From Pseudidiomarina marina (GTDB lineage: Bacteria > Pseudomonadota > Gammaproteobacteria > Enterobacterales > Alteromonadaceae), in contig NZ_PIPZ01000002.1 in the NCBI RefSeq assembly GCF_003987045.1, positions 434,001 to 498,000 on the forward strand: a DNA stretch of 64,000 nucleotides. The letters run 5' to 3'. Numbering within the stretch: position 1 is the first letter of the stretch; every line of letters starts with the position of its first letter. Below are positions 2,944 to 52,912 of this stretch, one piece after another. The translations under genes and the position numbers were made by a program. The notes below the pieces were generated by a model that did no database searches, was not told the origin of the DNA, and saw only the letters and a list, made by a program, of their open reading frames with translations.

Positions 2944-2944
2944 G

Positions 2945-4000: not shown

Positions 4001-4024
4001 AAAAAAGGCGATGTTGCCATCGCC
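4001..4024 (-). terminator. Rho-independent terminator on the minus strand
   Basis: A seven-base-pair stem (GGCGATG at 4007-4013, CATCGCC at 4018-4024) with a TTGC loop is followed, reading leftwards, by six T residues. The next minus-strand gene upstream, cytochrome c4, already has its own terminator, so this hairpin would end a separate short transcript from the 4.03-4.4 kb gap. Confidence 0.7.
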
Positions 4025-4407: not shown

Positions 4408-4433
4408 AAAAAGGCAGCTTTCGCTGCCTTTTT
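4408..4433 (-). terminator. Terminator of the cytochrome c4 gene
   Basis: An eight-base-pair stem (AAGGCAGC 4411-4418, GCTGCCTT 4423-4430) with a TTTC loop lies 11 bases past the cytochrome c4 stop codon and is followed on the minus strand by a T-rich run. Confidence 0.85.
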
Positions 4434-4443
4434 ATCGCCTATT

Positions 4444-5070: not shown

Positions 5071-5186
5071 GATCGATATCTCTGCTCTGGGTAGTTGTAA
5101 CAGACGCTATTTTACACAAAAGTTGTAAGGATTAAACGTCTAATCATGCTACTATGTGGTTTCAAATGAGGTCGCACAATACGTTT

Positions 5187-5825
5187 ATGAATACCACGTT
5201 AAACTTTCAGCCCACAAAATTTATCACGAGTGCCGCAAATATTCGACAATTGCCTGAAGATTCAGGCGTCGAGATCGCATTTGCGGGTCGTTCAAACGCG
5301 GGTAAATCAAGCGCACTAAACACGATCACGCGGCAAAAAGCCTTAGCTCGCACCAGTAAAACGCCTGGCCGCACGCAGCTAATCAACGTTTTTGAAGTGG
5401 AACCCAATAAACGCTTAATCGATTTACCTGGCTATGGTTATGCCAAAGTGCCTTTAGCGGTTAAAGAAAAATGGAACCAAGCGCTCAGTGAATACCTGCA
5501 GAAACGTCAGTCACTGCGTGGCCTCGTATTATTGATGGATATTCGTCATCCATACCGTGACACCGATCAGGATTTGCTGCATTGGGCAACTGATTGCGGC
5601 ATTCCAGTTCTCGTCTTGTTAACGAAAGCGGATAAGCTGAAACCCGGCCAACGTAAAAGCACGTTATTACAAGCTCGTGAAGCTGCATTGGTGTTCGGTG
5701 ATAGCGTGCAGGTAGAAATGTTTTCATCGCATAACAAAATCGGCCTTCCACAAGTTGAGGTGATTCTTTCCGACTGGCTTAACACGCCAGCAGAAGCAAC
5801 GGTTAGCGCCGATGCAGCAGAATGA
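5187..5825 (+). CDS. engB: Ribosome biogenesis GTP-binding protein EngB/YihA
   Basis: A 212-residue Era/TrmE-family GTPase needed for assembly of the large ribosomal subunit. The G motifs are clear: G1 [10 protein letters not shown]3 [10 protein letters not shown] and G4 LTKADK. I chose the ATG at 5187 because [20 protein letters not shown] aligns with the usual N-terminus; an in-frame ATG at 5154 would add 11 unlikely residues. The last codons overlap the start of the EamA transporter gene by 14 bases. In enterics engB lies convergent to polA, and the same orientation holds here with two genes in between. Confidence 0.95.
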
Positions 5826-6723
5826 AGCACCACCGCTAAAAGCTTGGTTATTGTTACTGCTCCTCGCAATGATTTGGGGTAGCTCATTTATCTTGATTAA
5901 AAAGGGCCTCATTGCCTTTAATCCCGATCAACTTGCCGCAATTCGTATTGCCTCTGCAGGCTTCGTGTTACTGCCATTCTTAATGCAACGCTTTAAAACT
6001 GTGCAACGGCACCACTGGCCTAAGTTAATTTCGGTTGGATTAGTTGGTAGTTTTATTCCAGCGTTTTTGTTTGCGTTTGCGCAAACACAACTACCCAGCG
6101 GTGTTACTGGCGTTCTCAATACATTTACGCCGTTGGCTACCTTGCTTATTGGTGTGCTAATTTTTCATCAAATTGTCGCCGTACAGCAATGGGTGGGTGT
6201 TCTTATTGGCTTGGCAGGCACCGTGGTTCTAATTACCGCCAATGCCAGCGGTGAGTTTCAGTTCAATGCCTATGCACTACTGATCATTGTTGCAACCATT
6301 TGCTATGGCATTAACCTCAATCTCATTAAGCATCATATTCCTGATTTGGGTGCCTTAACTATTACTGGGGTAAGTCTATTTTTAGTGGCACCGCCAGCGC
6401 TCATCTATTTACTGTTTGCAACACCGTTTGTTGAGCAACTTGGCTCGCAACCGGATGCCTATTTCTCGCTAACAGCGATTTTGATACTTGGTGTTGTTGG
6501 GACGGCAATGGCACTCGTCATTTTTAATACGGTTGTAAAAATGACTGATACGACGTTTACCAGCTCCGTCACCTACCTCATTCCGATTGTGGCGTTGATA
6601 CTTGGGGTGGTTGATGGTGAGCCGTTCCTGATTGAACACGCAATTGGTATGGCGGCCATTTTGACTGGCGTATTTATCGCTAATCGACGCGCCCGAAAAC
6701 CTCGCGTGGCTCCAACGGCGTAA
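5812..6723 (+). CDS. EamA-family (DMT superfamily) transporter
   Basis: A 303-residue inner-membrane protein with ten predicted helices in two EamA repeats. The first repeat opens with [23 protein letters not shown], the typical WG-S-F pattern of drug/metabolite transporters; the second begins near [21 protein letters not shown]. Family members export amino acids, metabolites or drugs, or import nucleotide sugars, and the substrate is not predictable. Its start overlaps engB by 14 bases, which implies translational coupling. It is probably not functionally linked to EngB. Confidence 0.85.
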
Positions 6724-6783
6724 ACTTGCGGTTAAAAAATAACCAACTAAATTTGTGGTGATGCAAAACGAGAGGACATCACC

Positions 6784-7164
6784 ATGGATCGCAAATATAT
6801 AATAATAGCTTTCATCTATGGCATTTTAGGCATTGCCTTAGGCATGTGGATGGCGGCTACCGCAAATCACCGTCAACTACCCACCCATACTCACATGATG
6901 TTGTTAGGCTTTACGGTGCCCATTCTTTATGCCGCGCTGCTTAAAGTTTGGATGAAACTAACCGAACCGACAAAAGAGTTATGGATACAGTTTGGTTTGC
7001 ACCAGCTTGGTACGTTAGGGCTCACTATCGGGCTTTATCTTCTTTATGGTGGTTACATTAAGCGGGAAGTTTTAGATCCATTTCTTGGCGTATCGTCATT
7101 ACTCACATTCGCAGGATTCATTTTAATATTTATTCTGTTTTTAAAAAGAAAAAGCCCGGCATAA
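6784..7164 (+). CDS. Four-helix membrane protein with conserved-looking histidines
   Basis: A 126-residue protein with four predicted transmembrane segments. The second segment carries HTHMMLLGFTVPILYAAL, which is preceded by NHRQLPTHTH. The pattern resembles the first helices of the haem-copper oxidase/NnrS-like families, in which histidines in helix 2 bind haem, but the protein is far too short to be a full oxidase. Small proteins of this kind are sometimes annotated as cytochrome-c-oxidase-like. The start at 6784 follows GAGAGGACATCACC. The stop codon falls in the loop of the minus-strand terminator of the polA transcript. Function unknown. Confidence 0.7.
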   Translation: MDRKYIIIAFIYGILGIALGMWMAATANHRQLPTHTHMMLLGFTVPILYAALLKVWMKLTEPTKELWIQFGLHQLGTLGLTIGLYLLYGGYIKREVLDPFLGVSSLLTFAGFILIFILFLKRKSPA

Positions 7165-7265
7165 AGCCGGGCAAAAGTTCTTACAATCCAGGGAGAGAAC
7201 ATCTCAGAAAGGTAATGACAAACGAACTCGATTCGTTTAATGCGCCTTTCACTGATTCAGACTGG
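7150..7265 (-). ncRNA. Possible small RNA at the spf (Spot 42) position
   Basis: The minus strand between polA and the terminator has the layout of the polA-spf locus of enterics and vibrios. A hairpin (AACGAA / TTCGTT around 7225-7242) is followed by an unstructured U/C-rich stretch containing GAGATGTTCTC, and then by the strong terminator. Spot 42 contains a similar AGATGTTCT element. Promoter-like TTGAAC hexamers lie near 7265-7285 but no good -10 box is evident. The 5' end is a guess. It may just be the 3' untranslated region of polA. Confidence 0.3.
7154..7172 (-). terminator. Strong terminator downstream of polA
   Basis: A perfect seven-base-pair GC stem (GCCCGGC 7154-7160, GCCGGGC 7166-7172) with a five-base loop is followed on the minus strand by TTTTTCTTTTT. 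It can end either polA mRNA or a small RNA transcribed from the gap. It overlaps the last codons of the convergent membrane-protein gene. Confidence 0.85.
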
Positions 7266-7312
7266 CTGTTCAAAAAATAGTTCAAAAAAAATTTTTAATT
7301 TCTGAAAATTTT

Positions 7313-10090
7313 TTAATGAGCTTCGTCCCAGTTGTTTCCAACACCCGCTTCGGCAATAAGCGGCACCTTCAAATCCGCCGCTTGTTCCATGATTTCAACG
7401 AGTTTCTTTTGATAGTCAGAAACTTTATCTTCTCGCACTTCAAATACCAATTCGTCGTGCACCTGCATAATCATATGTAGTTCGTCGTCACCTACCTGGG
7501 TATTTATATAATCGGCAACGGCTATCATTGCGCGTTTAATAATGTCAGCAGCAGTGCCTTGCATTGGCGCGTTGATTGCGGCACGTTCCGCCGCTTTGCG
7601 ACGCATGCCATTTTGAGATTTAATTTCCGGTAGCTGCAATCGACGTCCAAAGATTGTTTCGACATAACCGTCTCGTTTCGCTTGCGCGCGCGTGTTTTCC
7701 ATATATTTCAAGACACCTGGAAAACGGTCGAAGTACTTGTCCATATAGTCTTGCGCTTCTTGGCGCGGAATATCAAGCTGACGCGCCAAGCCAAACGCAG
7801 ACATGCCGTATATCAACCCGAAGTTCACGGCTTTCGCTCGGCGACGTTGCTCACTGGTGACTTGATCCAAGGCCACGCCAAACACTTCCGAGGCAGTGGC
7901 TTTGTGAATATCTCGACCTTTTGAGAAGGCTTCTACAAGCGCCGGATCTTGCGACAAGTGCGCCATAATCCGCAGCTCGATTTGGCTATAGTCAATCGCC
8001 ATGATTTTGTAGCCTGCAGGTGCTGTGAACGCTTTACGTACACGACGCCCGGCTTCGGTACGAATCGGAATATTCTGCAAGTTCGGGTCACTCGATGATA
8101 ACCGTCCAGTTGCCGTCACCGCTTGATGGTAAGAGGTGTGAATGCGATGCGTGCGCGGGTTGACCATCTTCGGCAATTTATCGGTGTAAGTCGATTTCAA
8201 CTTACTCAATCCGCGGTGCTGCATAATGACATCTGGCAAGGGATAATCGAGTGCTAATTCTTGTAGTACTTCTTCCGCAGTCGATGGTGCACCTTTTGGC
8301 GTTTTTTTACGCACTGGTAGCTGTAATTTCTCAAACAAAATCGTCTGCAATTGCTTGGTCGAACTCAAATTAAATTCTTCGCCAGCAATTTCATAAGCCG
8401 TTTTCTCGAGTTGCTGCAGCGCCATCGCAATTTCGTGGCTTTGTTTAGCCAGTAATGGTGCATCAATCTGTACACCGCGTTGCTCCATATCGACAAGCAC
8501 TGGTAGCAAGGGTAGTTCAATGGTTTGCAATACATTTAACAGCGCTTTCTCTTGGCTTACTTCCTGCCAAAGCTTGTGATGCAGCTGAAGCGTCACATCA
8601 GCATCTTCTGCCGCGTAAGGCGCGGCCTGTTCTAATCCAATCTGGTTAAACGTTAATTGTTTGGCGCCCTTGCCGGCAATATCTTCGAAAGAAATCGCTT
8701 TATGCCCCAAATACTGCAAGCTCAAGCTATCCATGTCATGACGTGAGCCGACACTATTGAATACATAAGATGCCAGCATAGTGTCGTTACGAATGGCGCC
8801 AACTCGAATGTTGTAACGACGCAAAATGTGGCTGTCATACTTCAGGTTTTGACCAATTAACTTAGGCTGCTCTGATTCAAGCAGCGGTTTCAATTGCTCG
8901 AGTACCCAAGCTCGGTCAAGTTGATCAGGGGCTCCAGGATAATCATGCGCCACCGGAATATAACAGGCCTGCCCTGGCTGAATCGCAAATGAAACGCCAA
9001 CAAGCTCAGCCTCCATATAATTCAAACTGGTGGTTTCAGTATCAAAAGCGAAATACTCGGCTTGTTCTAGTTGTTTCAACCAGTGCGCAAAACGCTCTTT
9101 CGTGGTCACTGTTTCGTAGGCGTCATGACTTACCGGCGTTTCGTTTGCAGTGTTTGACGAACTCGCCTCTCCCAACGCTTGATCGGTCGCTGCGCCCTCT
9201 TCTAATACCTCGGCTAACCAGCGGCGGAATTCACACTGTTTATAGAGCTGGATGAGTTCATCGCGATTTGATGGCTGAATGGTCAACTGATCAGGTCGAA
9301 AATCCAGTGGAACATCCAGTTTAATGGTTGCGAGTTCACGCGACATCAACAGAATGTCTTGGTTTTCGCGGAGTTTATCCGGCATCGTTTTAGCACCACG
9401 AAACTCAAGCTTTGCAATTGCATCAGGATCGGCCAGCATGGCATCAATTGACCCCATCCCCTGCAACATCGCCAAGGCAGTTTTCTCACCCACTTTAGGT
9501 AAGCCTGGAATATTATCTGAGCTATCGCCCATCAATGAGAGGAGATCAATCATTTGATCTGGCTTGACACCATACTTTGCGACCACGCCGTCATAATCCA
9601 ACAGCGTGTCTGTCATGGTATTAATCAGCATCACGTGGTCATTTACCAACTGCGCCATATCTTTATCGCCGGTACTAATCAGGGTAAATCGCCCTTCCTT
9701 GCCCGCCTGTTCGGCTAGGGTACCAATCACATCATCGGCTTCAACATCATCAATACATAGCAGTGGTAACCCGAGAGCCTGAACAATTTTATGCAACGGC
9801 TCTATTTGCTGACGCAAATCATCTGGCATAGGCGGACGATGCGCTTTGTATTCTGCATATATTTCATTACGAAATGTCGTACCTTTTGCATCGAACACGA
9901 CGGCCATATGGGAAGGCTTATATTTTTTCAACAGGCTTCTAAGCATGTTAACCACACCGTAGATTGCACCCGTAGGTTCTCCCGCAGAATTCGTTAAATG
10001 CGGTGGCGCATAAAACGCCCGAAATAAATAGGACGAACCGTCGACAAGAATGAATGGGTTCTCAGGTACTGATGGTGTTGGTGATGCCAT
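7313..10090 (-). CDS. polA: DNA polymerase I
   Basis: A 925-residue, full-length polymerase for gap filling, Okazaki-fragment maturation and repair. Three domains are visible in order: a 5'-3' flap exonuclease (residues 1 to about 290, with FDAKGTTFRNEIYAEYKAHR and the metal-binding acidic motif DDVEADDVIG), a 3'-5' proofreading domain with the intact DxE motif FDTETTSL, and the family A polymerase with motif A DYSQIELR, the O-helix region RRRAKAVNFGLIYG and motif C QVHDELVFEV. All catalytic acids are present, so proofreading is probably active. The start codon lies within a Met-Ala-Ser-Pro N-terminus. A consensus DnaA box lies 100 bases upstream. Confidence 0.97.
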   Translation of the reverse strand: MASPTPSVPENPFILVDGSSYLFRAFYAPPHLTNSAGEPTGAIYGVVNMLRSLLKKYKPSHMAVVFDAKGTTFRNEIYAEYKAHRPPMPDDLRQQIEPLHKIVQALGLPLLCIDDVEADDVIGTLAEQAGKEGRFTLISTGDKDMAQLVNDHVMLINTMTDTLLDYDGVVAKYGVKPDQMIDLLSLMGDSSDNIPGLPKVGEKTALAMLQGMGSIDAMLADPDAIAKLEFRGAKTMPDKLRENQDILLMSRELATIKLDVPLDFRPDQLTIQPSNRDELIQLYKQCEFRRWLAEVLEEGAATDQALGEASSSNTANETPVSHDAYETVTTKERFAHWLKQLEQAEYFAFDTETTSLNYMEAELVGVSFAIQPGQACYIPVAHDYPGAPDQLDRAWVLEQLKPLLESEQPKLIGQNLKYDSHILRRYNIRVGAIRNDTMLASYVFNSVGSRHDMDSLSLQYLGHKAISFEDIAGKGAKQLTFNQIGLEQAAPYAAEDADVTLQLHHKLWQEVSQEKALLNVLQTIELPLLPVLVDMEQRGVQIDAPLLAKQSHEIAMALQQLEKTAYEIAGEEFNLSSTKQLQTILFEKLQLPVRKKTPKGAPSTAEEVLQELALDYPLPDVIMQHRGLSKLKSTYTDKLPKMVNPRTHRIHTSYHQAVTATGRLSSSDPNLQNIPIRTEAGRRVRKAFTAPAGYKIMAIDYSQIELRIMAHLSQDPALVEAFSKGRDIHKATASEVFGVALDQVTSEQRRRAKAVNFGLIYGMSAFGLARQLDIPRQEAQDYMDKYFDRFPGVLKYMENTRAQAKRDGYVETIFGRRLQLPEIKSQNGMRRKAAERAAINAPMQGTAADIIKRAMIAVADYINTQVGDDELHMIMQVHDELVFEVREDKVSDYQKKLVEIMEQAADLKVPLIAEAGVGNNWDEAH

Positions 10091-10189
10091 GGATGCAATC
10101 TCAAAAATTTGCTGCTAAGAGTTGCTGTGTAGCATGCCACAGCTTCGAAATCTTCGCCACTGAGAGGCGTGAGCATACTGTGTAAAGGC

Positions 10190-10198
10190 TGTGGATAA
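10190..10198 (-). promoter_or_regulatory. Consensus DnaA box upstream of polA
   Basis: TGTGGATAA is the exact reverse complement of the strong DnaA box TTATCCACA. It lies 100 bases before the polA start, so it could couple polA expression to DnaA, but one nine-base match can occur by chance. Confidence 0.4.
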
Positions 10199-10504
10199 GT
10201 CTGTTGAAAACGACAAACTGCACCAGCGAAAGATCATAGATCTCTGGTGACAGCAGATTTGTAAACGTCTTGAAAAACAAGGGGTTCGAAGTACTTCTGA
10301 ATCCCTGACAGCGTTTTATTCTTATTTTGGCTCAGTTGTGGAAACTGATTTTTAGCACATACTTGGAAGGTAACGGCGTGCTCTGTCAATTCTCGTTGAA
10401 TCGAAATAGAAGACTATCACATTAATCGACGATTGCCAGTGCCAAATGCGATTTTCTTAGAACAATTTTTGTGCGTTATCAAAATCCCATATACGCAAAA
10501 GGAA

Positions 10505-10533
10505 TCAACATTGTCTTACTTTTTCTATATACT
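10505..10533 (+). promoter_or_regulatory. Candidate sigma-70 promoter for the orphan gene
   Basis: TCAACA (10505-10510), a 17-base spacer and TATACT (10528-10533) match four and five of six consensus bases. The gene starts about 95 bases further on. Confidence 0.4.
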
Positions 10534-10632
10534 GCTTGTCATAGTTCTTGCAAAAGCAATCTGAACTAGTGTTGAATGAGTACTATGTATATGATGAGTG
10601 TGACTGTTTAATACTTAACCAAACGTGGTCCT

Positions 10633-10911
10633 ATGGAAACAGAATCAATGAAGTTGACAAAAGATGAGCTACGCCAACTCGAGGAGTTTGAGCGACGCCG
10701 TATCGCTCTCAATCAATCAGAGTGGTGGGATCGATTGTCAATGGACCAAAAGTTTGGTGTTTACCAGCTACAGAAGTTTGGATTTGATTTGGCGTTTATC
10801 CGTAATACTGAAGACGGCCCGCTGGCGGTTGTGCGCCGTGGCAGTGAATTCGCCAGTGTCAATCATGAAGGCGATGTTGACCTCAGTCCTGATATTGTTT
10901 TACGCGACTAA
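10633..10911 (+). CDS. Small conserved-looking hypothetical protein, 92 residues
   Basis: The protein starts MKLTKDELRQLEEFERRRIA with a charged helix and continues into a mixed alpha/beta part ending in VVRRGSEFASVNHEGDVDLS. No signal peptide, membrane segment or known motif is seen. Two starts are possible: ATG at 10633 or ATG at 10648, the latter with GGAA nine bases upstream. It lies alone between polA and the convergent aroE, with only three bases to the aroE stop codon. Codon use resembles the backbone, so it is probably a real lineage-specific gene. Function unknown. Confidence 0.65.
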   Translation: METESMKLTKDELRQLEEFERRRIALNQSEWWDRLSMDQKFGVYQLQKFGFDLAFIRNTEDGPLAVVRRGSEFASVNHEGDVDLSPDIVLRD

Positions 10912-33160: not shown

Positions 33161-36675
<3,515 letters not shown>

Positions 36676-41984: not shown

Positions 41985-43358
41985 ATGGACTTTGAGCTAA
42001 CGAACGACACTATCGTTGCACAAGCCACGCCTCCTGGGCGTGGCGGTGTCGGCATTGTGCGCGTTAGCGGCCCCGCGGCGCGCAACGTCGCTGAGCGGAT
42101 GTTGGGGCATTGCCCAGTTCCACGTAAGGCGGAATACTTAACGTTTAAAGACCTTGACGGCGCAGTGCTTGATGAAGGCATTGCGCTTTTTTTTCCGGGA
42201 CCAAACTCGTTTACCGGTGAAGATGTACTTGAGTTGCAAGGCCACGGTGGCCCCATACTCATCGACATGATCATCAAGGCAATTCTCGACTTCCCTGAAG
42301 TACGCCCTGCTCGCCCCGGCGAATTCAGCGAGCGCGCGTTTTTAAACGATAAACTCGATTTAACTCAGGCAGAGGCCATTGCTGATCTCATCGATACCAC
42401 CTCAGAACAAGCCGCTAAAGCCGCTTTACAGAGTCTGCAAGGCGGTTTCTCACACGAGATAGACCAACTTGTCGATCAAGTCATACACCTGCGCATGTAC
42501 GTCGAAGCTGCGATTGACTTCCCCGATGAAGAAATTGACTTCCTCAGTGACGGTAAAGTTGCGGCGGACCTTGAGGCGATTATTGATCGGCTGCAACAAG
42601 TGATGGTGCAAGCAAAGCAAGGCACGTTATTACGCGAAGGCATGAAAGTGGTGATCGCCGGTCGACCTAATGCTGGGAAATCGTCGTTATTAAACGCCCT
42701 CGCCGGTCGTGAATCAGCGATTGTAACGGCTATTGCTGGTACCACGCGCGATGTGTTGCGCGAGCATATTCAAATTGATGGAATGCCATTGCACATCATC
42801 GATACCGCCGGACTCCGAGAAAGCCCCGATGAAGTCGAACGCATCGGTATTCAACGCGCATGGGACGAAATTCGTGGCGCTGACCGTGTGCTATTTATGG
42901 TCGATGCGACTGAAACCAACGCCGTTCATCCTGCCGATATCTGGCCTGAGTTTTTTACGCAGTTACCCGAAGATCTGCCGTTCACGGTTATTCGTAACAA
43001 GGTTGATTTGAATGAAGAGCCGGTGATCATTGAAGATATTGGTGGCATTCCAGTGCTTCATCTAAGCGCAAAAACCGGACACGGCATTGATTTACTGCGC
43101 GAGCATTTAAAACACTGCGTCGGTTATACCGCCACCAGCGAAGGTAGCTTTATGGCACGTCGCCGTCACCTTGATGCCCTCGAGCGTGCGCGCGAACATC
43201 TGATGATTGGGCAAGAACAACTAGAAATGAATTTGGCCGGCGAATTGCTTGCTGAAGAGCTTCGCCTCACCCAACAACACTTAAACGAGATCACCGGTGA
43301 GTTCACTTCCGATGACTTGCTGGGCAAAATTTTTAGTAGCTTCTGTATCGGGAAGTGA
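41985..43358 (+). CDS. mnmE: tRNA modification GTPase MnmE (TrmE)
   Basis: With MnmG it installs the 5-carboxymethylaminomethyl group at U34 of certain tRNAs. The 457-residue protein has the folate-binding N-domain ([21 protein letters not shown]), the G domain ([25 protein letters not shown]) and the essential C-terminal FCIGK. The end is complete. MnmG is not in the window; an island of foreign DNA begins about 70 bases after the stop codon. Confidence 0.97.
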
Positions 43359-43430
43359 AACGGCCAAAAAGATCGAAAAGCATCCAATCAAATACAAATA
43401 GACCATTGTTTTAAAACGTATTTTATTTTA

Positions 43431-43440
43431 TTTTTTTGCA
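43431..43440. repeat. Ten-base direct repeat at the left island edge
   Basis: TTTTTTTGCA recurs at 52789-52798, just where the base composition returns to that of the backbone. It could be an attachment core or target duplication; being low in complexity it may also be chance. Confidence 0.3.
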
Positions 43441-43460
43441 AACGGTTTGATCCTTTTTGC

Positions 43461-44100
43461 CCCCTCTTGCTCCTCTACGACAAACCCCGCCTTCCGGCGA
43501 AGCGTGAGCACAACAAGACCGTGAATCAGAAGGCTGAGGCCATCCGCGCAAAGCGGCTGTTGGAAATCGAGTCGTCACGACATGGATTGGATGATTGGAC
43601 CAAGCATATCGGGATGGCATTGTCCGCGACAACCCGGTTCAACATGTCAAGTCCATCAAGCCGGAAAACACGAAACGGACTTACCTGACCCTGGAAGAGG
43701 TCCGGGCTCTGACCAAAGCCGAATGCCGGTATGACGTGCTGAGGCGGGCTTTCCTGTTTTCCTGCACTACTGGCCTTCGCTGGTCAGACATCCACAAGCT
43801 GGTCTGGGGTGAGATAGAGGAATTCGCTGATGGCCATTACCGCATCATTTTCCGGTAGAAGAAGCTGGTAAATGCCGGAAATTCGTTGCAATACCTTGAC
43901 CTTCCCGATTCAGCGGTAAAACTGCTTAACCTGGAGAATCCTGGCAAGCCTGTTGCCCGTGTATTCAGCGAACTGCGCACTACAGAGATCTATGCGGATA
44001 TTCTCGAAACGCGCCGTACTGAAGCCATGAGGAGCTTTCACAGTCCCGCTTTACACCTGCCCCACATCAAACACTCCGCCGTCTTGATCTTCGGTGTGTA
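43461..44100 (+). pseudogene. Decayed tyrosine recombinase (integrase)
   Basis: Three pieces of one integrase remain. First, 43467-43580 encodes part of the arm/core-binding region (AEAIRAKRLLEIESSRHGL). Second, after a deletion and frame change, 43595-43855 holds the core start (KRTYLTLEEVRALTKAECRY, TTGLRWSDIHKLVW with the first catalytic Arg). The codon at 43856-43858 is TAG where the family has a Gln codon. Third, the same frame goes on to LRTTEIYADILE, which carries the Tyr nucleophile, but the block with the His-x-x-Arg and second His motifs is missing between VFSEL and RTTEIYADI. The style resembles integrases common in Bacteroidetes mobile elements. It cannot be active. Confidence 0.88.
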
Positions 44101-44136
44101 AATCCCCATTTATAACACAGTCAACTTGTAGAGTAT

Positions 44137-44202
44137 TTATGCCGCATTGCGGTACTCAAATGGCGTCATGTCATTGAGTGAATCGTGCGGTCGCTGGATG
44201 TT
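44137..44202 (-). pseudogene. IS3-family transposase C-terminus remnant
   Basis: Read on the minus strand this encodes NIQRPHDSLNDMTPFEYRNA-Ala-stop, the typical last residues of the IS3-family transposase catalytic domain. Nothing else of the element is recognisable on either side, so a deletion has joined it to the flanking DNA. It shows past IS activity at the head of the stress cassette. Confidence 0.75.
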
Positions 44203-44207
44203 GACTC

Positions 44208-44236
44208 TTGACTTTCGGCATGTTAGGCACCATAAC
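44208..44236 (+). promoter_or_regulatory. Candidate sigma-70 promoter of the stress cassette
   Basis: TTGACT (44208-44213), 17 bases and CATAAC (44231-44236). It lies next to the IS3 remnant and about 250 bases before hsp20. No clear sigma-32 promoter was found by eye in this region. Confidence 0.3.
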
Positions 44237-44384
44237 TTACAAAGTCTTGCAAGAATTTCCTCGATCGAGGCCGCGTGACGACGGAACTTGTGGGGGGGGG
44301 TATGACAGTTTCGTCAAAGTGAAATCGATCGATGGATCAATAATCAGACCCAAGCAGGCAGAAAGAAGGAGGTGATACCTACAG

Positions 44385-44438
44385 ATGAGCAGTCGAAGTC
44401 AGCGAAACATCCCGTGTTGCCTGGGCGGCTATCCATAG
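44385..44438 (+). CDS. Possible 17-residue leader peptide before hsp20
   Basis: ATG at 44385 follows AGGAGG 12 bases upstream and encodes MSSRSQRNIPCCLGGYP before a TAG. The stop codon lies inside a strong hairpin (44420-44445). The layout is that of a leader peptide plus RNA structure, but it may be accidental: the spacing to the AGGAGG is longer than optimal. Confidence 0.3.
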   Translation: MSSRSQRNIPCCLGGYP

Positions 44439-44445
44439 CCGCAGG
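44420..44445 (+). promoter_or_regulatory. Hairpin in the 5' leader of hsp20
   Basis: GCGGCTAT (44425-44432) and ATAGCCGC (44435-44442) form a perfect inverted repeat with a two-base centre, so the outer seven pairs can form around a four-base loop; flanking CCT/AGG can extend it. There is no T-run after it, so it is not a simple terminator. Confidence 0.5.
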
Positions 44446-44492
44446 CAAACGAAGTGAGTGAGATTCTTTAATTTTTCTTCTGGAGGTGTGAC

Positions 44493-45053
44493 ATGGACAT
44501 TGATTTTAAGAAATTGGCTCCCTGGAACTGGTTTAAGAAAGAGCAGGAAGAACAACAGAGCACTGCCTCGCTGTCCGTGCAGCGCAATGACCTGCCGGTG
44601 GCAGGCGGTCCCATCCTGCAATTGCATCGCGAGATCGATCGCCTGTTTGACGATGCGTTTCGAGGCTTCGGCTTCCCGGCGCTGGCCATGCCGCGATGGT
44701 CGTCGGAGTGGCCGGACATGCTGAAGCCGGCGCTGGACATTCAAGAAACCGACAAGCAGTACAAGATTTCCTTGGAGGTTCCCGGCGTCGAGGAAAAGGA
44801 CATTCAGATCACGCTCGACAACGACGTGCTGATGGTACGGGGCGAGAAGCGCCAGGAGCAGGAAAAGAAGGAAGGTGGCTTCCATCGCGTCGAACGCTCC
44901 TACGGCAGTTTCCAGCGTGTCCTGAACCTGCCTGACAACGCCGACCAGGAATCGATCAAGGCCGCATTCAAGAACGGCGTGCTCACGATCTCGATGGACA
45001 AGCGCGAGGCCAGTGCGCCTAAGCAGGGCCGCTCGATCCCGATCAACGACTGA
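44493..45053 (+). CDS. hsp20: Small heat-shock protein Hsp20 of the tLST type
   Basis: A 186-residue alpha-crystallin-type holding chaperone that keeps unfolding proteins in a soluble, refoldable state. A flexible N-terminal part (MDIDFKKLAPWNWFKKEQ) precedes the alpha-crystallin domain at residues about 75-165 (PALDIQETDKQYKISLEVPG to AAFKNGVLTISM) with its conserved A-x-x-x-N-G-V-L-like motif. A short tail with Ile-Pro-Ile follows, which serves oligomer assembly. GGAGG lies six bases before the ATG. In the heat-resistance islands of Enterobacteriaceae and Pseudomonas the same gene stands before clpK, as here. Its GC content is much higher than that of the backbone. Confidence 0.93.
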   Translation: MDIDFKKLAPWNWFKKEQEEQQSTASLSVQRNDLPVAGGPILQLHREIDRLFDDAFRGFGFPALAMPRWSSEWPDMLKPALDIQETDKQYKISLEVPGVEEKDIQITLDNDVLMVRGEKRQEQEKKEGGFHRVERSYGSFQRVLNLPDNADQESIKAAFKNGVLTISMDKREASAPKQGRSIPIND

Positions 45054-45150
45054 CGCCGATCGGCTCGTTCTCCACAGAAAAACCAAGTGAAAGGCAAGGC
45101 GCCGTGACCTTCGGTGCCTCGTCAAATGAGTCCTGTTAAGGAGCATCATC

Positions 45151-47991
45151 ATGGTCAGAAAACAATGCCGAATCTGCGGCCAACCCGCCACGGTGCGGGT
45201 GGAAGCCAATCTCAATGGTCGCCACAGCACTATACAGTTGTGTGACGATCACTATCGCCAACTGGTGCGCCAGCAAAAGCGCACCGTCTCACCGCTGGAA
45301 GCCTTGTTCGGCTCGCGCAGCGGGCTGTTCGAAGACTTCCTTGGCAGCGACCTCCTCCGCATCGGTGACGACGCACCGTCCATGGCGGCCGATACCGACG
45401 AGGTCGTCGATGCCTCTTTCGGCGAATCTGCTCCCGCAACGGCGGGCACGGCACGCCGCCGCGGCAGTGGGCTGGCCAGCCGTATCAGCGAACAGTCTGA
45501 GGCCCTGTTGCAGGAGGCCGCCAAACATGCCGCCGAATTTGGCCGCCCCGAAGTCGATACCGAACACCTACTGTTGGCTCTCGCCGACAGCGACGTGGTG
45601 AAGACCATCCTGGGACAATTCAAGATCAAGGTCGATGACCTCAAGCGGCAAATCGAATCCGAAGCCAAGCGTGGCGAGAAGCCGTTTGAGGGCGAAATCG
45701 GCGTATCGCCCCGGGTCAAGGACGCGCTCAGCCGCGCTTTCGTGGCATCCAACGAACTCAGCCACGCCTATGTCGGCCCAGAGCATTTTCTGATCGGGCT
45801 GGCCGAGGAAGGCGAAGGCTTGGCAGCTAACCTGCTGCGCCGTTACGGCCTCACGCCGCAAGCGCTGCGCCAGCAGGTGAGCAAGGTGGTCGGCAAAGGT
45901 GCCGAGGATGGCCGCGCCGAGACGCCGACCAACACGCCCGAGCTGGATAAATACTCGCGAGACCTCACCAAGATGGCGCGCGAGGGCAAACTCGATCCGG
46001 TCATCGGTCGTGCGCAGGAGATCGAGACCACCATCGAGGTGCTGGCCCGGCGCAAGAAAAACAACCCGGTGTTAATCGGTGAGCCCGGCGTCGGCAAGAC
46101 CGCCATTGTCGAAGGACTGGCGCAGCGGATGGTCGCCGGCGAAGTGCCCGAGACGCTGCGCGACAAGCGCCTGGTGGAACTCAACATCAACGCCATGGTG
46201 GCAGGCGCCAAGTACCGCGGCGAGTTCGAGGAGCGCGTGCAGAAGGTGCTCAAGGAAGTGACCGAGCACCAGGGCGAGATGATTCTCTTCATCGACGAGG
46301 TGCACACCATCGTCGGTGCAGGCCAGGGTGGCGGTGAAGGCGGTCTGGACGTCGCCAACGTGTTCAAGCCGATGATGGCGCGCGGCGAACTGAACCTGAT
46401 CGGCGCCACCACGCTCAACGAGTATCAGAAGTACATCGAGAAGGACGCCGCGCTGGAGCGTCGCTTCCAGCCGGTGATGGTGCCCGAGCCAACGGTAGCA
46501 CAGACCATGATGATTCTGCGCGGCCTGCGCGACACCTTCGAGGCGCACCACAAGGTCAGCATCACCGAGGATGCGATCATCGCCGCCGCCGAGTTGTCGG
46601 ACCGCTACATCACCGCGCGCTTTTTGCCTGACAAGGCCATCGACCTGCTCGACCAGGCGGCCGCACGCGTAAAGCTGTCGGCCACGGCCCGCCCGGTGGC
46701 GGTGCAAGAGCTGGAGTCCGAACTGCACCAGCTGCGGCGTGAGCAGGACTATATGGCCTCGCGAAAACAGTACGACAAGGCCGCCGAGCTGGGCAAGCGC
46801 ATCGAGGCCAAGGAGACTGAACTCAAGAAGCTCGTCGAGGAATGGGAACGCGAGCGCGCCTCGGGTAGCGCCGAAGTCAAGGCCGAGCATGTCGCGCAGA
46901 TCGTCTCGCGCCTGACCGGCATTCCGGTCAACGAGCTGACGGTGGAAGAACGCGAGAAGCTGCTGCATCTGGAGCAGCGGCTGCACGAGCGCCTGGTGGG
47001 CCAGGACGAAGCGGTGCGTGCGGTGGCCGATGCCGTGCGGTTGTCGCGGGCGGGCTTGCGCGAGGGCAGCAAGCCGGTGGCGACTTTCCTGTTCCTTGGG
47101 CCGACCGGCGTGGGCAAGACCGAACTCGCCAAGGCGCTGGCCGATTCCATCTATGGCGATGAAGGTGCGCTGCTGCGCATCGACATGTCCGAGTACGGTG
47201 AACGCCATGCCGTGGCACGCTTGGTGGGCGCGCCTCCGGGCTATGTGGGCTATGACGAGGGCGGCCAGCTCACCGAGAAAGTACGGCGCAAACCCTACAG
47301 CGTGTTGTTGCTCGATGAGATCGAAAAAGCGCACCCCGATGTCTACAACATCCTGCTGCAGGTATTCGACGACGGGCGGCTTACCGACGGCAAGGGCCGG
47401 GTGGTGGATTTCACCAATACCATCATCATCGCCACCTCGAACTTGGGCTCGGACATCATCCAGCGTCGGCTGAAGGCCCGTAGCGCCGGCGGCGAGGAAT
47501 ACGTGAAGACCAAGTCTGAGGTGATGGACGTGCTGCGCGGACACTTCCGCCCCGAGTTCCTCAACCGCATCGACGAGATCATCGTCTTCCATGCGCTGGG
47601 CAAGGAGGAGATCCGCCATATCGTCGGCCTGCAGCTCGATCGCGTGGCGCGCAACGCCGCCAGCCAGGGCGTGACGTTAACCTTCGACCAGACCTTGATC
47701 GACCACTTCGCGGAGGAAGGCTACAAACCCGAGTTCGGCGCGCGCGAGCTCAAGCGGCTGATCCGCAGCGAGCTGGAAACCGCGCTGGCACGCGAAATGC
47801 TCGGTGGTGGCATCGGCAAGGCCGATCACGCCAGTGCCCGCTGGGATGACAAGGCCGAACGGGTGGTCTTCGAGCGCCAGGAGCCACCCGCGAAGCCGGC
47901 CGAGCCCGATGCCGCGAACGTGGCCGAGGCACCGCCGAACGGCGAGAGCAAGGTTACGCGCAAGAAGAAGCCGGCGGGCGGCGAATCTTGA
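45151..47991 (+). CDS. clpK: ClpK/ClpG-type AAA+ protein disaggregase
   Basis: A 946-residue Hsp100 ATPase that gives heat resistance in Klebsiella, E. coli and Pseudomonas islands. Layout: a Cys-rich zinc-binding N-terminus (CRICGQPA and CDDH), a linker, a double Clp_N domain (residues about 105-250), AAA1 with Walker A GEPGVGKT and Walker B LFIDEVH, a short coiled middle segment ([16 protein letters not shown]) as in ClpC/ClpE rather than the long ClpB one, AAA2 with GPTGVGKT and LLDEIEKAH, and a basic/acidic C-terminal extension. I find no ClpP-binding Ile/Leu-Gly-Phe loop in AAA2, which fits a stand-alone disaggregase. It follows hsp20 by 97 bases with AAGGAG before the ATG. Confidence 0.95.
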
Positions 47992-48193
47992 GCAATCTTG
48001 AGCGATGGGAGGCTGTCGTGTCCGACCCCAACGGGCTGACATGGGCAGCCACCGTCGTGGTGTCGCTGGCGGTCGCTGAATCGACTCAGACACGCATCGA
48101 CCAAGCCACCAATCGCGTGCCAGCCAACAAGTTGGCAGAGAAGCCCAATTGCGTGCAGTGCCAGCACCTCTTTTCACCGGAGACCCCATCGAG

Positions 48194-50668
48194 ATGACCA
48201 CAGCGTCGGTAGAGGACATCACCGATCTCAGGAGGATCGAGCAGGCGCTGAACTCTATGCGCCTACAGCGAGAAGAGTTGGCCAGCCACGTTCCCGGTAT
48301 GCTTTACCAATACCGTCTTCGTCCGGACGGCAGCTCGCACTTCCCTTATGCCAGCGCGAAGATACGGGAAATATACGGGGTTGCACCGGAGGATGTTGTT
48401 GAAGATGCCACTCCTGCGTTCGCTGCGCTCCATCCTGAAGACCGCGACCGTGTGCATGAAACCATACAGGCGTCGGGGCAGTCACTCGCGCTTTGGCATG
48501 ACGAGTACCGGGTGCAGTTTCCAGACGGTCGGGTGATCTGGGTCGAAGGCGAGGCGTCGCCTGAAGCCATGCCTGATGGGAGCATCCTCTGGCACGGCTA
48601 TATCCATGATGTCACCTCACGCAGAAGATCCGCGGAAGAGCTTCGCCTTGCGGCTAAAGTTTTTGAGCACGCAGGAGAGGGCATCCTCGTTACGGACGCT
48701 CAAGGCCACATTGCCAACGTCAATCGGGCGTTTTCCGTGATCACTGGTTATTCGCGGGAGGAAGTAATGGGCCAGACACCTCGTCTGCTCGAGTCCGATC
48801 GCTATGAAGATGAGTTCTATCAGACCGTTTGGCAGGCTCTGCGTGAGCACGACTACTGGCACGGAGAGCTCTGGTGCCGACGCAAGAACGGCAGTCAGTT
48901 TGCCGCGCTGCTGACGATCAGCGCAGTCCCGGATATGCGGGGCAATATCGAGCATTACGCAGCCATGTTTTCCGACATCACACCGCTGAAGGAGAACCAG
49001 CAACAGCTTGAACGCGTTGCTCATTACGACCTGCTCACCGGCTTGCCCAATCGACTATTGCTTGGAGACCGCCTTAAGCAGGCCATTCGTCAGGCACGTC
49101 GGCGTGGCATGCACCTGGCGGTTGTCTTCATCGATCTGGATGGGTTCAAGAAGGTCAACGACCAGCACGGCCACGGAGTCGGCGACAAATTGCTTTCCGT
49201 CCTGTCCAGGCGTATGACGCAGGTGTTGCGCGAAGGCGATACCTTGGCCCGTCTTGGTGGTGATGAGTTTGTCGCTATTCTGCTCGACCTGCCGGATATT
49301 TCCGTCAGCGTACCGATTCTCGATCGCCTGATCGAGGTGGCTGCACAGCCCGTACCGATTGGTGACGCACTGTGCGAGGTGAGCGCGAGTATCGGTGTGA
49401 GCTACTACCCGCAAGGCGAAGATATCGACGCCGACCAACTGCTGCGGCAGGCAGATCAGGCTATGTATCGTGCCAAGCAAGCCGGCAAGAATCGATATCA
49501 CGTTTTCGATACGGAGAAGGATCGTACACTGCGCACCCGTCACGAAGGATTTGACAGCATAGAGAATGCACTTGCCAATGGGCAGTTTCTGCTTTATTAC
49601 CAACCTAAGGTCAACATGCGCACCGGTGAGGTGCTGGGCGCCGAAGCCTTGATCCGCTGGCAACATCCGACGCGTGGCTTGTTATCTCCTGCCTCCTTCA
49701 TACCGATCATTGAGAACCATCCGCTCGGGATTGACGTGGGGGAATGGACCATCGAGGCTGCACTGACCCAGATCGAAGTTTGGCGCAAGGCCGGCCTTCA
49801 TGTCCCGATTAGCGTGAATATCGGTGCGCGGCACTTGCTGCAACCGGACTTCATCACGCATCTACGGGGTATGTTGTCACGTCATCCCGGCGCCCAGCCG
49901 CAAGACCTTGAGCTGGAAATCCTCGAAACCAGCGCCGTGGAGGACTTCGTTCAAGTGTCTCAGTTGATGGCGCAGTGCGAGAGGATGGGGTTGCGTTTTG
50001 CCCTCGACGATTTCGGCAGCGGCTATTCATCGCTGGCCTATCTGAAGCGCCTGCCCGCGCACCTGCTCAAGATCGACCAAGGTTTTATACGCGACATGCT
50101 CGAGGATCCGGACGATATCGCCATCCTGGATGCGCTGCTGGCACTGGCAAGGTCGTTTGGCAGGAACTGCATCGCGGAGGGAGTCGAATCCATTCGGCAT
50201 GGTGAAATGCTGCTGCGTATGGGATGCGAGTGGGGCCAGGGTTATGCCATCGGGCATCCGATGCCGGCGCATGAATTCGAGCAATGGCTACACACCTGGC
50301 AGGTACCCTTATCCTGGAAGGGATTCAAACCTGACAGTCGCTCCGCGCTGCCCGTACCGTTCACATACGTCGACCACCGGGTCTGGATTTCCCAGATGAT
50401 CGACTATCTGTCAGGTAAGACCCAAGTGCCGCCTCAACCCGAAGCACTCCAATACTGGCGGGATCAAAGTGGCCGCCCTACGTTCTTCGGCAAGGACCCT
50501 GATGATCAGGTCGATGTCCTGCATCAGAGCATCCAGCAGTTAACGCACACCCTGAGTGAAATGAAAAATACCGGCCGTGTCGAGGCATTGAGGGCGGGTA
50601 TCGACAAGTTGCAACATTTGCAGGCGGATCTGCTGGAGTTGCTGCCGCCAGACCAGAAGCCGGATTGA
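48194..50668 (+). CDS. PAS-PAS-GGDEF-EAL cyclic-di-GMP enzyme, probably 5'-truncated
   Basis: Makes and/or degrades c-di-GMP. From the ATG at 48194 (GGAG ten bases upstream) it has 824 residues; a TTG at 48149 would give 839. Numbering from the TTG: PAS domains at about 40-160 and 165-282; GGDEF with RLGGDEF at 368-374 and an intact RxxD inhibitory site (REGD, 361-364); EAL with E499 in GAEALIRW, N557, DDFGSG at 620-625, K641 and E681, all intact; then a C-terminal helical part (735-835) like a chemoreceptor zinc-binding (CZB) domain whose expected Cys is absent. The first residues (LFTGDPIEMTTASVEDITDL) look like the tail of a further PAS/PAC motif, so the gene probably lost its 5' end. There is no transmembrane segment. 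Confidence 0.9.
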   Translation: MTTASVEDITDLRRIEQALNSMRLQREELASHVPGMLYQYRLRPDGSSHFPYASAKIREIYGVAPEDVVEDATPAFAALHPEDRDRVHETIQASGQSLALWHDEYRVQFPDGRVIWVEGEASPEAMPDGSILWHGYIHDVTSRRRSAEELRLAAKVFEHAGEGILVTDAQGHIANVNRAFSVITGYSREEVMGQTPRLLESDRYEDEFYQTVWQALREHDYWHGELWCRRKNGSQFAALLTISAVPDMRGNIEHYAAMFSDITPLKENQQQLERVAHYDLLTGLPNRLLLGDRLKQAIRQARRRGMHLAVVFIDLDGFKKVNDQHGHGVGDKLLSVLSRRMTQVLREGDTLARLGGDEFVAILLDLPDISVSVPILDRLIEVAAQPVPIGDALCEVSASIGVSYYPQGEDIDADQLLRQADQAMYRAKQAGKNRYHVFDTEKDRTLRTRHEGFDSIENALANGQFLLYYQPKVNMRTGEVLGAEALIRWQHPTRGLLSPASFIPIIENHPLGIDVGEWTIEAALTQIEVWRKAGLHVPISVNIGARHLLQPDFITHLRGMLSRHPGAQPQDLELEILETSAVEDFVQVSQLMAQCERMGLRFALDDFGSGYSSLAYLKRLPAHLLKIDQGFIRDMLEDPDDIAILDALLALARSFGRNCIAEGVESIRHGEMLLRMGCEWGQGYAIGHPMPAHEFEQWLHTWQVPLSWKGFKPDSRSALPVPFTYVDHRVWISQMIDYLSGKTQVPPQPEALQYWRDQSGRPTFFGKDPDDQVDVLHQSIQQLTHTLSEMKNTGRVEALRAGIDKLQHLQADLLELLPPDQKPD

Positions 50669-50770
50669 TGCCATGCACGGGACAAAGGGTTGACGTGCAA
50701 AAGGCTGATCGAGTCGTCTTCTCGCACTCCCCGTTCCATTAACGTTTCATTGAAAGAGAGAGCAACGCTT

Positions 50771-51241
50771 ATGCATAAAGAATCTGACCACACGACCCTT
50801 GACGAGATGCGCGCCCAGTGGCGGTTGATGACGGTTTACGAGCGCTTCGAGCAGGTCATCGCCCTCGTTCTGTCGGCGGTCATTGCCGTCATCATCGTGG
50901 TGTCGCTGTTCCAGCTGATCGCTATCGTCTTCACGCTGCTGGTCCTCGATGCCTTCAATCCCCTGGATCACAAGGTATTCCAGAAGGTGTTCGGCATGAT
51001 CATGACGCTCCTGATCGCGATGGAATTCAAGCATTCCATCGTGCGCGTGGCGCTGCGTAAGGAAAGCATCATCCAGGTCAAGACCGTCATTCTGATCGCA
51101 ATCCTGGCACTGGCCCGCAAGTTCATCATCCTTGCCCCCGACGTTGATCCTGCCAAACTGGCCGCCCTGGCGGGGACGATACTAGCCTTGGGTCTGACCT
51201 ATTGGCTCATGCGTGAACGCGACGACCGGATGAGCGAGTAA
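50771..51241 (+). CDS. psiE: PsiE-family membrane protein
   Basis: A 156-residue inner-membrane protein of the PsiE (phosphate-starvation-inducible E) family, with four predicted helices (ALVLSAVIAVIIVVSLFQLI, VFGMIMTLLIAMEF, VKTVILIAILALARKFII, LAALAGTILALGLTYWLM) and the family motif MEFKHSIV. The ATG at 50771 follows GAGAG; a TTG at 50690 in frame would add 27 atypical residues. PsiE is a constant part of heat-resistance islands, where it helps survival under heat or oxidative stress by an unknown mechanism. It lies 102 bases after the c-di-GMP enzyme gene. Confidence 0.9.
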   Translation: MHKESDHTTLDEMRAQWRLMTVYERFEQVIALVLSAVIAVIIVVSLFQLIAIVFTLLVLDAFNPLDHKVFQKVFGMIMTLLIAMEFKHSIVRVALRKESIIQVKTVILIAILALARKFIILAPDVDPAKLAALAGTILALGLTYWLMRERDDRMSE

Positions 51242-51248
51242 TTGGACC

Positions 51249-51413
51249 ATGACTCTTTATAGTCTAGACGATCGACACGATGCCAGATCGAGGCACCGCT
51301 GGCTCAATCGCTTTCAAACCTTGTTGCTGGTTTTGACCCTGCTGAAGGTCGTTCGCCCCGATTTGTCCGCCACGCCGGGGCCTGAGCGGCCTTTTGGCGT
51401 TAAATCACTCTAA
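51249..51413 (+). CDS. Possible 54-residue small protein between psiE and degP
   Basis: An open frame from ATG at 51249 to TAA at 51413 fills the gap between psiE and the protease gene. It starts eight bases after the psiE stop, so translation could be coupled, and its own stop lies just before the AGGAG of the next gene. The product (MTLYSLDDRHDARSRHRWLN...) has a basic start and one short hydrophobic stretch (FQTLLLVLTLLKVV). There is no strong ribosome-binding site and GC-rich DNA favours chance frames. Confidence 0.35.
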   Translation: MTLYSLDDRHDARSRHRWLNRFQTLLLVLTLLKVVRPDLSATPGPERPFGVKSL

Positions 51414-51426
51414 AGGAGCTTCCGTC

Positions 51427-52581
51427 ATGTCTTCCCCCAGTCCTTACCTACAACGCCCAGCACCGGATCATTTCGTCCGGCGCTGGCTCGTCATCACTGC
51501 GTGCGTTGCAGCACTCATGTTGTTCTGGCAGTTCCTGCCCGCCATCGAAGCCTGGTTCAGCCCGCGCCAAGCCGCTGAGCGCACCGTCACGCCGCGTGGC
51601 GATCTGGCCGCTGACGAACAGGCCACCATCGAACTGTTCGAAAAATCACGCGCCTCGGTGGTCTACATCACCACCGCGCAGCTAGTGCACGACGTCTGGA
51701 CGCGCAATGTCTTCTCCGTGCCCCGCGGCACGGGATCGGGCTTCATTTGGGACGACGCCGGCCACGTGGTGACCAACTTCCACGTGATCCAGGGGGCATC
51801 GTCTGCCACGGTCAAACTGGCCGACGGTCGCGATTATCAGGCTGCGCTTGTTGGCGCCAGTCCTGCCCACGACATCGCGGTACTCAAGATTGGCGTCGGC
51901 TTCAAGCGCCCGCCGGCGGTGCCGGTGGGCACCAGTGCTGATCTCAAGGTGGGGCAAAAGGTCTTTGCCATTGGCAATCCCTTCGGGCTCGACTGGACGC
52001 TCACCACTGGCATCGTTTCCGCGCTCGAGCGCACGCTCGACGGCGAAGGTGGCGGCCCTGCCATCGAGCACCTGATCCAGACCGACGCCGCTATCAACCC
52101 CGGCAATTCCGGTGGCCCGCTGCTCGATTCGGCTGGGCGGCTGATCGGCATCAATACCGCCATCTACAGTCCGTCTGGCGCCTCGGCCGGCATCGGCTTT
52201 GCAGTGCCCGTCGATACCGTCATGCGCGTGGTGCCGCAACTCATAAAGACCGGCAAGTACATCCGTCCGGCGCTGGGCATCGAGGTGGATGAGCAGCTCA
52301 ACACGCGTCTGCAGGCGCTGACCGGCAGTAAGGGCGTATTCGTATTGCGCGTGACGCCGGGCTCGGCGGCGCACAGGGCCGGGCTCGTCGGCGTCGAGGT
52401 CACCGCCGGCGGCATCGTGCCCGGCGATCGCATTTTCAGCATCGACGGTATCGCCGTCGACGACGTCACCACATTACAGGCCCGGCTAGACGACAAGCAT
52501 GTTGGAGATGTTGTGGTCTTGTTAGTGGAGCGGGCCGGCAAGACTCGCGAGATGCTTGTGGAACTACAACCGGGAGTTTGA
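51427..52581 (+). CDS. degP: DegP/HtrA-like serine protease of the tLST
   Basis: A 384-residue trypsin-like protease with one N-terminal membrane anchor (WLVITACVAALMLFWQFLP), acting in the periplasm on misfolded proteins. The catalytic triad is visible: His in VVTNFHVIQGA, Asp in AHDIAVLKIG and Ser in INPGNSGGPLL. A single PDZ domain follows (residues about 290-380, AHRAGLVGVEVT to VLLVERAGK), so it resembles DegS/HhoA more than two-PDZ DegP. The ATG at 51427 follows AAAGGAG; an upstream in-frame start would add 11 residues. It is the last gene of the cassette. Confidence 0.93.
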   Translation: MSSPSPYLQRPAPDHFVRRWLVITACVAALMLFWQFLPAIEAWFSPRQAAERTVTPRGDLAADEQATIELFEKSRASVVYITTAQLVHDVWTRNVFSVPRGTGSGFIWDDAGHVVTNFHVIQGASSATVKLADGRDYQAALVGASPAHDIAVLKIGVGFKRPPAVPVGTSADLKVGQKVFAIGNPFGLDWTLTTGIVSALERTLDGEGGGPAIEHLIQTDAAINPGNSGGPLLDSAGRLIGINTAIYSPSGASAGIGFAVPVDTVMRVVPQLIKTGKYIRPALGIEVDEQLNTRLQALTGSKGVFVLRVTPGSAAHRAGLVGVEVTAGGIVPGDRIFSIDGIAVDDVTTLQARLDDKHVGDVVVLLVERAGKTREMLVELQPGV

Positions 52582-52912
52582 TGGAAAGTGGGTCATGGAT
52601 CTGCACAGCGAAGCAGCCAAGCGACTTCAGCCTTGTGCCGAACTACGAGCCCTAGCTAGTGCAGTGGGGGGAAGGCTGTTTAGGTTAAATGGGATATTTA
52701 CACCCAGTCTCCCACTTATCCCGGTTTGGGATTGGGTGATCAGGAGCCGGTTCTGAAAAAAACACAAATATTTGCACTTTTTTCGCAGTTTTTTTGCACT
52801 CCGTAGGTGCTCCAAAATATTTATACGTTATTGTTTTTAAATAGTATGTTAGATTCTGCATCGGGAAATAACCGAACTCTCGATACCAATAAAACCAAAA
52901 AGTGAGAACACC
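52582..52912. other. Right island edge and symporter upstream region; hairpin at 52701-52738
   Basis: GC content falls near 52.63-52.76 kb, marking the island edge. A two-part inverted repeat lies at 52701-52738: CACCCA pairs with TGGGTG and, inside, TCCCA with TGGGA around CTTATCCCGGTT. It could end the cassette transcript or be part of an element end. Past 52750 the DNA is AT-rich, with the second TTTTTTTGCA copy at 52789-52798 and probably the symporter promoter. No coding frame is convincing. Confidence 0.45.
52789..52798. repeat. Ten-base direct repeat at the right island edge
   Basis: TTTTTTTGCA, same orientation as the copy at 43431-43440. The 9.35 kb between the copies contains all of the foreign DNA. 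Confidence 0.3.

Follow-up and report, generated by a model that had tools for sequence, protein, structure and literature searches.

A reduced heat- and stress-tolerance island in an apparent integrative-element remnant at mnmE of Pseudidiomarina marina

How did a compact, GC-rich run of stress genes come to lie directly behind mnmE in Pseudidiomarina marina, and is its small size original or the result of loss? We addressed this question in a 64,000-nucleotide stretch (the window; assembly GCF_003987045.1, contig NZ_PIPZ01000002.1, positions 434,001 to 498,000) in which the run carries hsp20, clpK, a gene for a GGDEF-EAL protein of the PdeR type, psiE and a degP-type gene. A preliminary description of the window had compared it to the transmissible locus of stress tolerance (tLST) or locus of heat resistance (LHR) and had read it as a minimal tLST. 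Judged by its DNA, the segment 44191-52693 is a heat-and-stress-tolerance island of the tLST, LHR or TLPQC (transmissible locus for protein quality control) type in reduced form, and it is horizontally acquired at mnmE.

Computed GC content is 60.0% in the segment; once 43359-52871 is set aside, the window has 47.7%. This bears out the elevated GC first described and matches the value of about 61%, whatever the host, given for tLSTs in PMC8290217. Domain searches placed HSP20, ClpK, PAS/GGDEF/EAL, PsiE and HtrA/DegP-type domains in this order along the island, all on the plus strand, confirming the co-directional gene set of the preliminary description. The island ClpK scores above the cut-off of the curated NCBIfam ClpK model NF033606 (1900 bits) and below that for ClpG, and the degP-type protein scores under the cut-offs of the named DegP, DegQ and DegS models. 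Within the tLST core, dna-hsp20-clpG/clpK, the second and third genes are intact and dna is broken by a deletion; we therefore class the island as a reduced tLST derivative and not as a complete tLST. In a nucleotide search with the whole segment, 1332 records matched among 72,556 from plasmids and 184 among 20,395 from Escherichia coli, and in none of them did a single place cover at least 80% of the query. The plasmid matches include 18 Providencia and 6 Moellerella records; because these counts equal those obtained with an IS3 fragment at the island start alone, the 24 records are probably not tLSTs.

When genome contigs were searched with the GGDEF-EAL protein, the best 80 of 586 confirmed loci comprised 12 (L009-L020) at 92-97% identity and 68 at 44-59%. 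All 12 have tLST genes beside the GGDEF-EAL gene. By tblastn, clpK, full or partial, lies upstream in 10 of them and psiE with degP downstream in 11; in the stretches examined, L012 is without clpK, L018 ends inside the GGDEF-EAL gene and L019 begins inside it. The nucleotide and protein comparison proposed in the preliminary description gives high DNA identity to known tLSTs, and the suggested kinship holds. In the Stutzerimonas degradans tLST (L020, 9950-12407) the match to the GGDEF-EAL gene is broken into two pieces at residue 237/238, an apparent frameshift, and in Pseudomonas lundensis (L015, 11737-12717) a DDE transposase gene separates it from psiE. Plasmids were rejected as the source of the gene, all of the matches listed (5000 records) being below 60% identity.

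At E <=1e-250, ClpK occurs in one of the 394 genomes of the order, that of the window itself (G000). Vertical inheritance was rejected because of its absence at this level from the 25 other genomes of the genus and the 393 others of the order. In a 59-genome search the other ClpK matches listed reach at most 56% identity and cover part of the protein. The middle genes of known tLSTs had been reported as unseen. The whole genome has no YfdX match, which also speaks against their having moved elsewhere, whereas trx is present as a scrap; hdeD and kefB were not seen on reading the open reading frames (ORFs) of 40-56 kb, and no genome-wide search was made for either. The outcomes that the preliminary description had named in advance as refuting its reading did not appear, there being no ClpK in sister species and no YfdX elsewhere in the genome. 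A viral source was likewise rejected: of 39 loci in the viral collection, 38 reach at most 55%, and the one above this, L161 (72.8%), belongs to a ClpK cluster that is only distantly related. That record (IMGVR_UViG_3300045950_000267, 2398-10748, filed as viral) has its ClpK match together with hsp20-like, psiE (46%) and degP (57%) matches on the other strand, and resembles a distant tLST-like cluster.

The gene mnmE (41985-43358) directly precedes the island, as first described, and a pair of attachment (att) sites flanks it. attL and attR repeat 18 bp of the mnmE end imperfectly and differ by 3 mismatches; when up to 4 are allowed, the att core has four matches in the window, two of them the att pair, compared with 0.4 in shuffled 64-kb sequence. 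The last 9 bp of attL are GGGAAGTGA, printed in PMC9035990 as the attL end of most elements related to Salmonella genomic island 1 (SGI1) outside the SGI1 cluster, with few exceptions. The broken integrase noticed earlier at the island start adjoins attL, and its pieces are 84-96% identical in DNA to positions 225-1717 of L143, from the mnmE island of the sister species G004. There the integrase ORF is intact, has a Phage_integrase domain and is 82% identical to the integrase beside mnmE in E. coli 1585m1. The right end of the element (52703-52871) is 71-74% identical to L144 10595-10763 (G004) and L139 1250-1414 (G006). The IS3 piece, also noticed earlier, proved to be an end fragment; of the 15 places listed for it, 9 in Providencia are annotated as IS3 transposase and 6 in Moellerella are without annotation. 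Nothing but this piece and the tLST was found to separate the integrase remnant from the right end, and no mobilisation or replication backbone is left. The island looks like the occupant of a remnant of the SGI1-related type of element. Because the SGI1-type backbone is gone, any SGI1-related membership is one of ancestry of the ends only; mobilisation genes would once have been present.

In assembly comparisons the site is shown to be empty in sister species. Across 26 genomes of the genus, that of the window included, the gap between mnmE and the SDF gene is at most 60 bp in 7 and 1.1-40.5 kb in 11, the window among them; the remaining 8 are uninformative because a gene is missing or the two lie on separate contigs. 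A larger distance alone is no proof of an island. A second att copy on the far side is clear in G004 and G006, and G008 has a weak one next to its SDF gene (5 mismatches); the stretches examined took in the intervals of G008 and G019 in part. The mnmE island of G004 (L143/L144) has about 22.6 kb between its att copies and an intact integrase, and G006 (L139) has about 1.1 kb between two att copies at mnmE, an apparent remnant. We found no literature linking clpK or a heat-resistance locus with trmE or SGI1 through a tLST in an mnmE-site vehicle; where clpK and trmE are both mentioned, it is a Mu-like prophage, not a tLST, that is placed at mnmE, and none of the papers listed brings the heat-resistance locus together with Idiomarina. 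The suggested nearness to the replication origin agrees with dnaA-dnaN-recF-gyrB at 33.2-39.3 kb and is not borne out by the cumulative GC skew, which is without a clear turning point there.

Junction alignments against fuller relatives revealed ten deletion junctions in the window. Four lie in the integrase region (194, 271, 165 and 68 bp relative to L143). The others become apparent against relatives such as L010 of Vogesella urethralis, which carries dna (HTH_17), hsp20, clpK, cls, ftsH, trx, pdeR, psiE, htpX and degP. In dna, 124-125 bp are deleted at 44307/44308 (relative to L009 and L014), and most of the part coding for the helix-turn-helix, present as an HTH_17 domain in the intact relative, is gone. 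Relative to L010, 3033 bp are missing from cls to ftsH, 260 bp from ftsH to trx and 800 bp from trx to pdeR. The leftovers of the first three genes form a scrap ORF that runs with its stop into an ATG of the GGDEF-EAL gene, at 48194, and the trx-pdeR fusion takes out the first PAS of the GGDEF-EAL protein. A further 81 bp are missing between pdeR and psiE at 50707/50708, a difference from L010 that we assume to be a loss in the window lineage. From htpX, whose L010 counterpart is a Peptidase_M48 protein, 812 bp are missing relative to L009 and 440 bp relative to L015.

Because partial genes remain at most junctions, these differences are read as loss here and not as gain in the relatives. It is very improbable that the compact layout is ancestral and that the larger islands grew from it: although short layouts of differing composition exist (L158, L159), the junctions contradict it, with partial dna and htpX and with scraps of cls, ftsH and trx still in frame. 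The compact form is secondary, the product of about ten deletions, and in place of a primordial minimal tLST the scars reveal a larger island of the cls-ftsH-trx-pdeR-psiE-htpX-degP type that was cut down. Microhomology at the junctions is in modest excess only, with a mean of 2.0 bp (range 0-5) where random breakpoints give 0.72 (p 0.0013); counted three-way, so that the window must agree, the mean is 1.6 (p 0.013). Strong microhomology, of up to 11 bp as suggested by overlapping BLAST ends, disappeared on careful alignment. Coordinates are collected in Table 1.

Table 1. Features of the island and its ends, in window coordinates
Feature	Position	Strand	Remarks
attL TTCTGTATCGGGAAGTGA	43341..43358	+	also final codons of mnmE; direct repeat of attR
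Decayed tyrosine integrase and upstream region	43359..44096	+	four internal deletions
IS3-family end fragment	44097..44190	.	93.7% to 24 plasmid records of Providencia/Moellerella
tLST upstream region and dna/orf1 remnant	44191..44458	+	aligned with L009, L010, L014, L017, L020
hsp20	44493..45053	+	intact; PF00011, 102.8 bits
clpK	45151..47991	+	intact, 946 aa; NF033606, 2125 bits
Scrap ORF cls'-ftsH'-trx'	47988..48198	+	one frame; junction alignments to L010, translation
GGDEF-EAL gene (pdeR-type)	48149..50668	+	PAS_3, PAS_9, GGDEF, EAL; N-terminally truncated
psiE (orf14)	50690..51241	+	PF06146, 109.5 bits
htpX (orf15) scar	51242..51393	+	deletion at 51344/51345
degP/htrA-type protease (Trypsin_2 and PDZ)	51394..52581	+	PF13365, 125.6 bits
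Right end of integrative element, including attR 52854-52871 TTCTGCATCGGGAAATAA	52703..52871	+	att copy

We propose, with good confidence, the following anatomy and history. A tLST of the larger type would have entered an integrative element that targets the mnmE 3' end. In or before the present host, the combined element would have lost a large share of the tLST, along with integrase function and mobilisation genes, to about ten illegitimate deletions; the frames of hsp20, clpK, the truncated GGDEF-EAL gene, psiE and degP are still open.

To date the parts of the island, we compared synonymous divergence (dS) across the window and 11 loci; L016 was omitted, its BLAST rows being equal to those of L015. 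The median dS is 0.070 for the GGDEF-EAL gene (maximum 0.141, 66 pairs), 0.222 for clpK (1.195, 45 pairs), 0.727 for psiE (1.894, 55 pairs) and 0.749 for degP (1.183, 55 pairs), with short rows for clpK of L015 (137 codons) and L011 (453) and for the frameshifted pdeR of L020 (602). The loci were picked by GGDEF-EAL similarity; the drop in identity from 92% to 59% among the best 80 of 586 loci disfavours a selection artefact. These distances show that the copies of the GGDEF-EAL gene in the islands aligned share a recent origin, and the gene looks like a recently spread passenger in older islands. The window itself is a mosaic: psiE and degP are closest to P. lundensis L015 (dS 0.08 and 0.16), the GGDEF-EAL gene to L009 and L018 (0.04) and clpK to L020 (0.18).

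The preliminary description had seen a PAS-GGDEF-EAL protein where tLSTs usually have their middle genes. Such a gene is no novelty of this locus but a published kind of tLST passenger: in Pseudomonas aeruginosa PT31M such a gene replaces kefC (PMC7685784), PdeR of Pseudomonas sp. phDV1 is named and enzymes of cyclic diguanylate (c-di-GMP) in tLSTs are discussed in PMC8290217, and a review notes diguanylate cyclases acquired by tLSTs (PMC10333796). The full-length relative in L010 has 935 aa and three PAS_3 stretches. The window protein retains GGDEF, the preceding RxxD, EAL, DDFG and further signature motifs. Because the signature motifs of each activity are kept, cyclase and phosphodiesterase activity are both possible. 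The host genome has 14 EAL matches, the island's own counted in, so a c-di-GMP network is available for the enzyme to act on; the protein may change host c-di-GMP, most likely as a phosphodiesterase.

The suggested coupling of disaggregation to c-di-GMP in the island is plausible. We regard it as unlikely, however, that the five-gene cassette is a new functional design selected as a unit for this coupling. In favour of such a design, many tLSTs carry a GGDEF-EAL gene of recent age, its motifs are kept and another tLST encodes a known thermosensing cyclase (PMC8012707); against it, the layout was made by deletions, the first PAS was lost and no plasmid or E. coli record has the layout at 80% coverage. 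A more tentative extension of the proposed history, possible though doubtful, is that the gene is a selected passenger, recently swept into many old, diverged tLSTs (dS 0.07 versus 0.2-0.75), that couples the heat island to a c-di-GMP reset. If so, protein rescue would be tied to leaving or entering the sessile state, and the host would have kept the gene through deletions that removed other island genes. The median dN/dS, 0.30 for the GGDEF-EAL gene compared with 0.19 for psiE and 0.08 for both clpK and degP, indicates weaker constraint, which somewhat disfavours strong selection on it.

By family knowledge and the tLST literature, Hsp20 would hold and ClpK dissolve protein aggregates after heat, and DegP would act in the periplasm. 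The cassette may still give some heat or oxidant tolerance, and on balance we think a present function of the island rather probable. There is purifying selection on hsp20 (dN/dS 0.08-0.09 against the five closest relatives), clpK (0.04-0.12, pairwise) and degP. The island could instead be decaying without present function, the deletions being neutral erosion and the open frames just young. The ten junctions do hit regulator, integrase and protease genes, the GGDEF-EAL gene is truncated and only a fragment of IS3 is left. However, hsp20, clpK, psiE and degP are open without a stop, the ClpK protein is little changed at dS of about 0.2 from its nearest relatives, and none of the ten junctions falls in the main frame of any of these four genes, which at ten events is only suggestive. 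We consider such erosion a minority prospect.

Several observations weigh against the history and function proposed here. Pairwise dN/dS takes in the history before arrival and is no proof of selection in the host; a sigma-70 scan found 0 promoter-like sites as against 3.2 in shuffles; dna is disrupted; and the start of the truncated GGDEF-EAL gene is putative, at TTG 48149 or ATG 48194. The integrase deletions are judged from one relative, L143, and the opposite strand has two further att-core matches, at 35675 and 38440 (4 mismatches), within chance.

What is new here is the position of the island within an att pair at the mnmE 3' end, next to the decayed integrase; GGDEF-EAL genes in tLSTs were already known. 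The att repeats and the scraps of dna, cls, ftsH, trx and htpX had escaped the preliminary description. The locus extends the tLST range to a small-genome, probably marine gammaproteobacterium, adds a vehicle that is new for tLSTs as far as the literature was searched, and records which genes were kept and which went. Owing to the dS contrast, 12 public loci can serve to test why c-di-GMP enzymes occur in heat islands.

Among known systems, the SGI1-related elements of PMC9035990, whose hosts include Idiomarina, share with the window the mnmE/trmE 3' end, an 18-bp att with the same attL end and a tyrosine integrase adjoining attL. Unlike them, the window is without a mobilisation backbone and has a tLST as cargo; its integrase remnant was compared with the integrase region of L143, and the integrase of L143 with that of E. 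coli 1585m1. TdcA, the thermosensing enzyme of a P. aeruginosa tLST, is likewise a c-di-GMP enzyme with a PAS_3-family domain, but its description as PAS plus GGDEF sets it apart from the PAS-PAS-GGDEF-EAL protein of the window (PMC8012707). The comparison was made with a related tLST diguanylate cyclase, encoded on the E. coli plasmid L160, whose annotation splits it into two overlapping coding sequences; it is 34-41% identical to full-length PdeR over GGDEF and 27-31% over PAS, a weak PAS similarity. By their descriptions, the islands of PT31M (PMC7685784) and of phDV1 with its PdeR (PMC8290217) are like that of the window. The tLSTt of Enterobacteriaceae is also reduced and keeps hsp20, clpG/clpK and the psiE-like orf14, but is described as retaining dna and htpX (orf15), whereas its diguanylate cyclase is down to a C-terminal piece (PMC8290217). 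On an Acinetobacter plasmid, the likewise reduced stretch L159 combines clpK, PsiE, HtpX and a DegP-like protease with a cyclase fragment of 93 aa. Another compact layout, on an E. coli plasmid (L158, 4088-9520), consists of hsp20, clpK, an M48 protease and an S1C protease, with no further annotated gene between. Unlike L009-L020, the tLSTs with a GGDEF-EAL gene, the window has dna, cls, ftsH, trx and htpX deleted or as scraps and the first PAS of the GGDEF-EAL protein gone; like them, it carries hsp20, ClpK, GGDEF-EAL, PsiE and DegP in the same order, at 75-98% DNA identity by segment.

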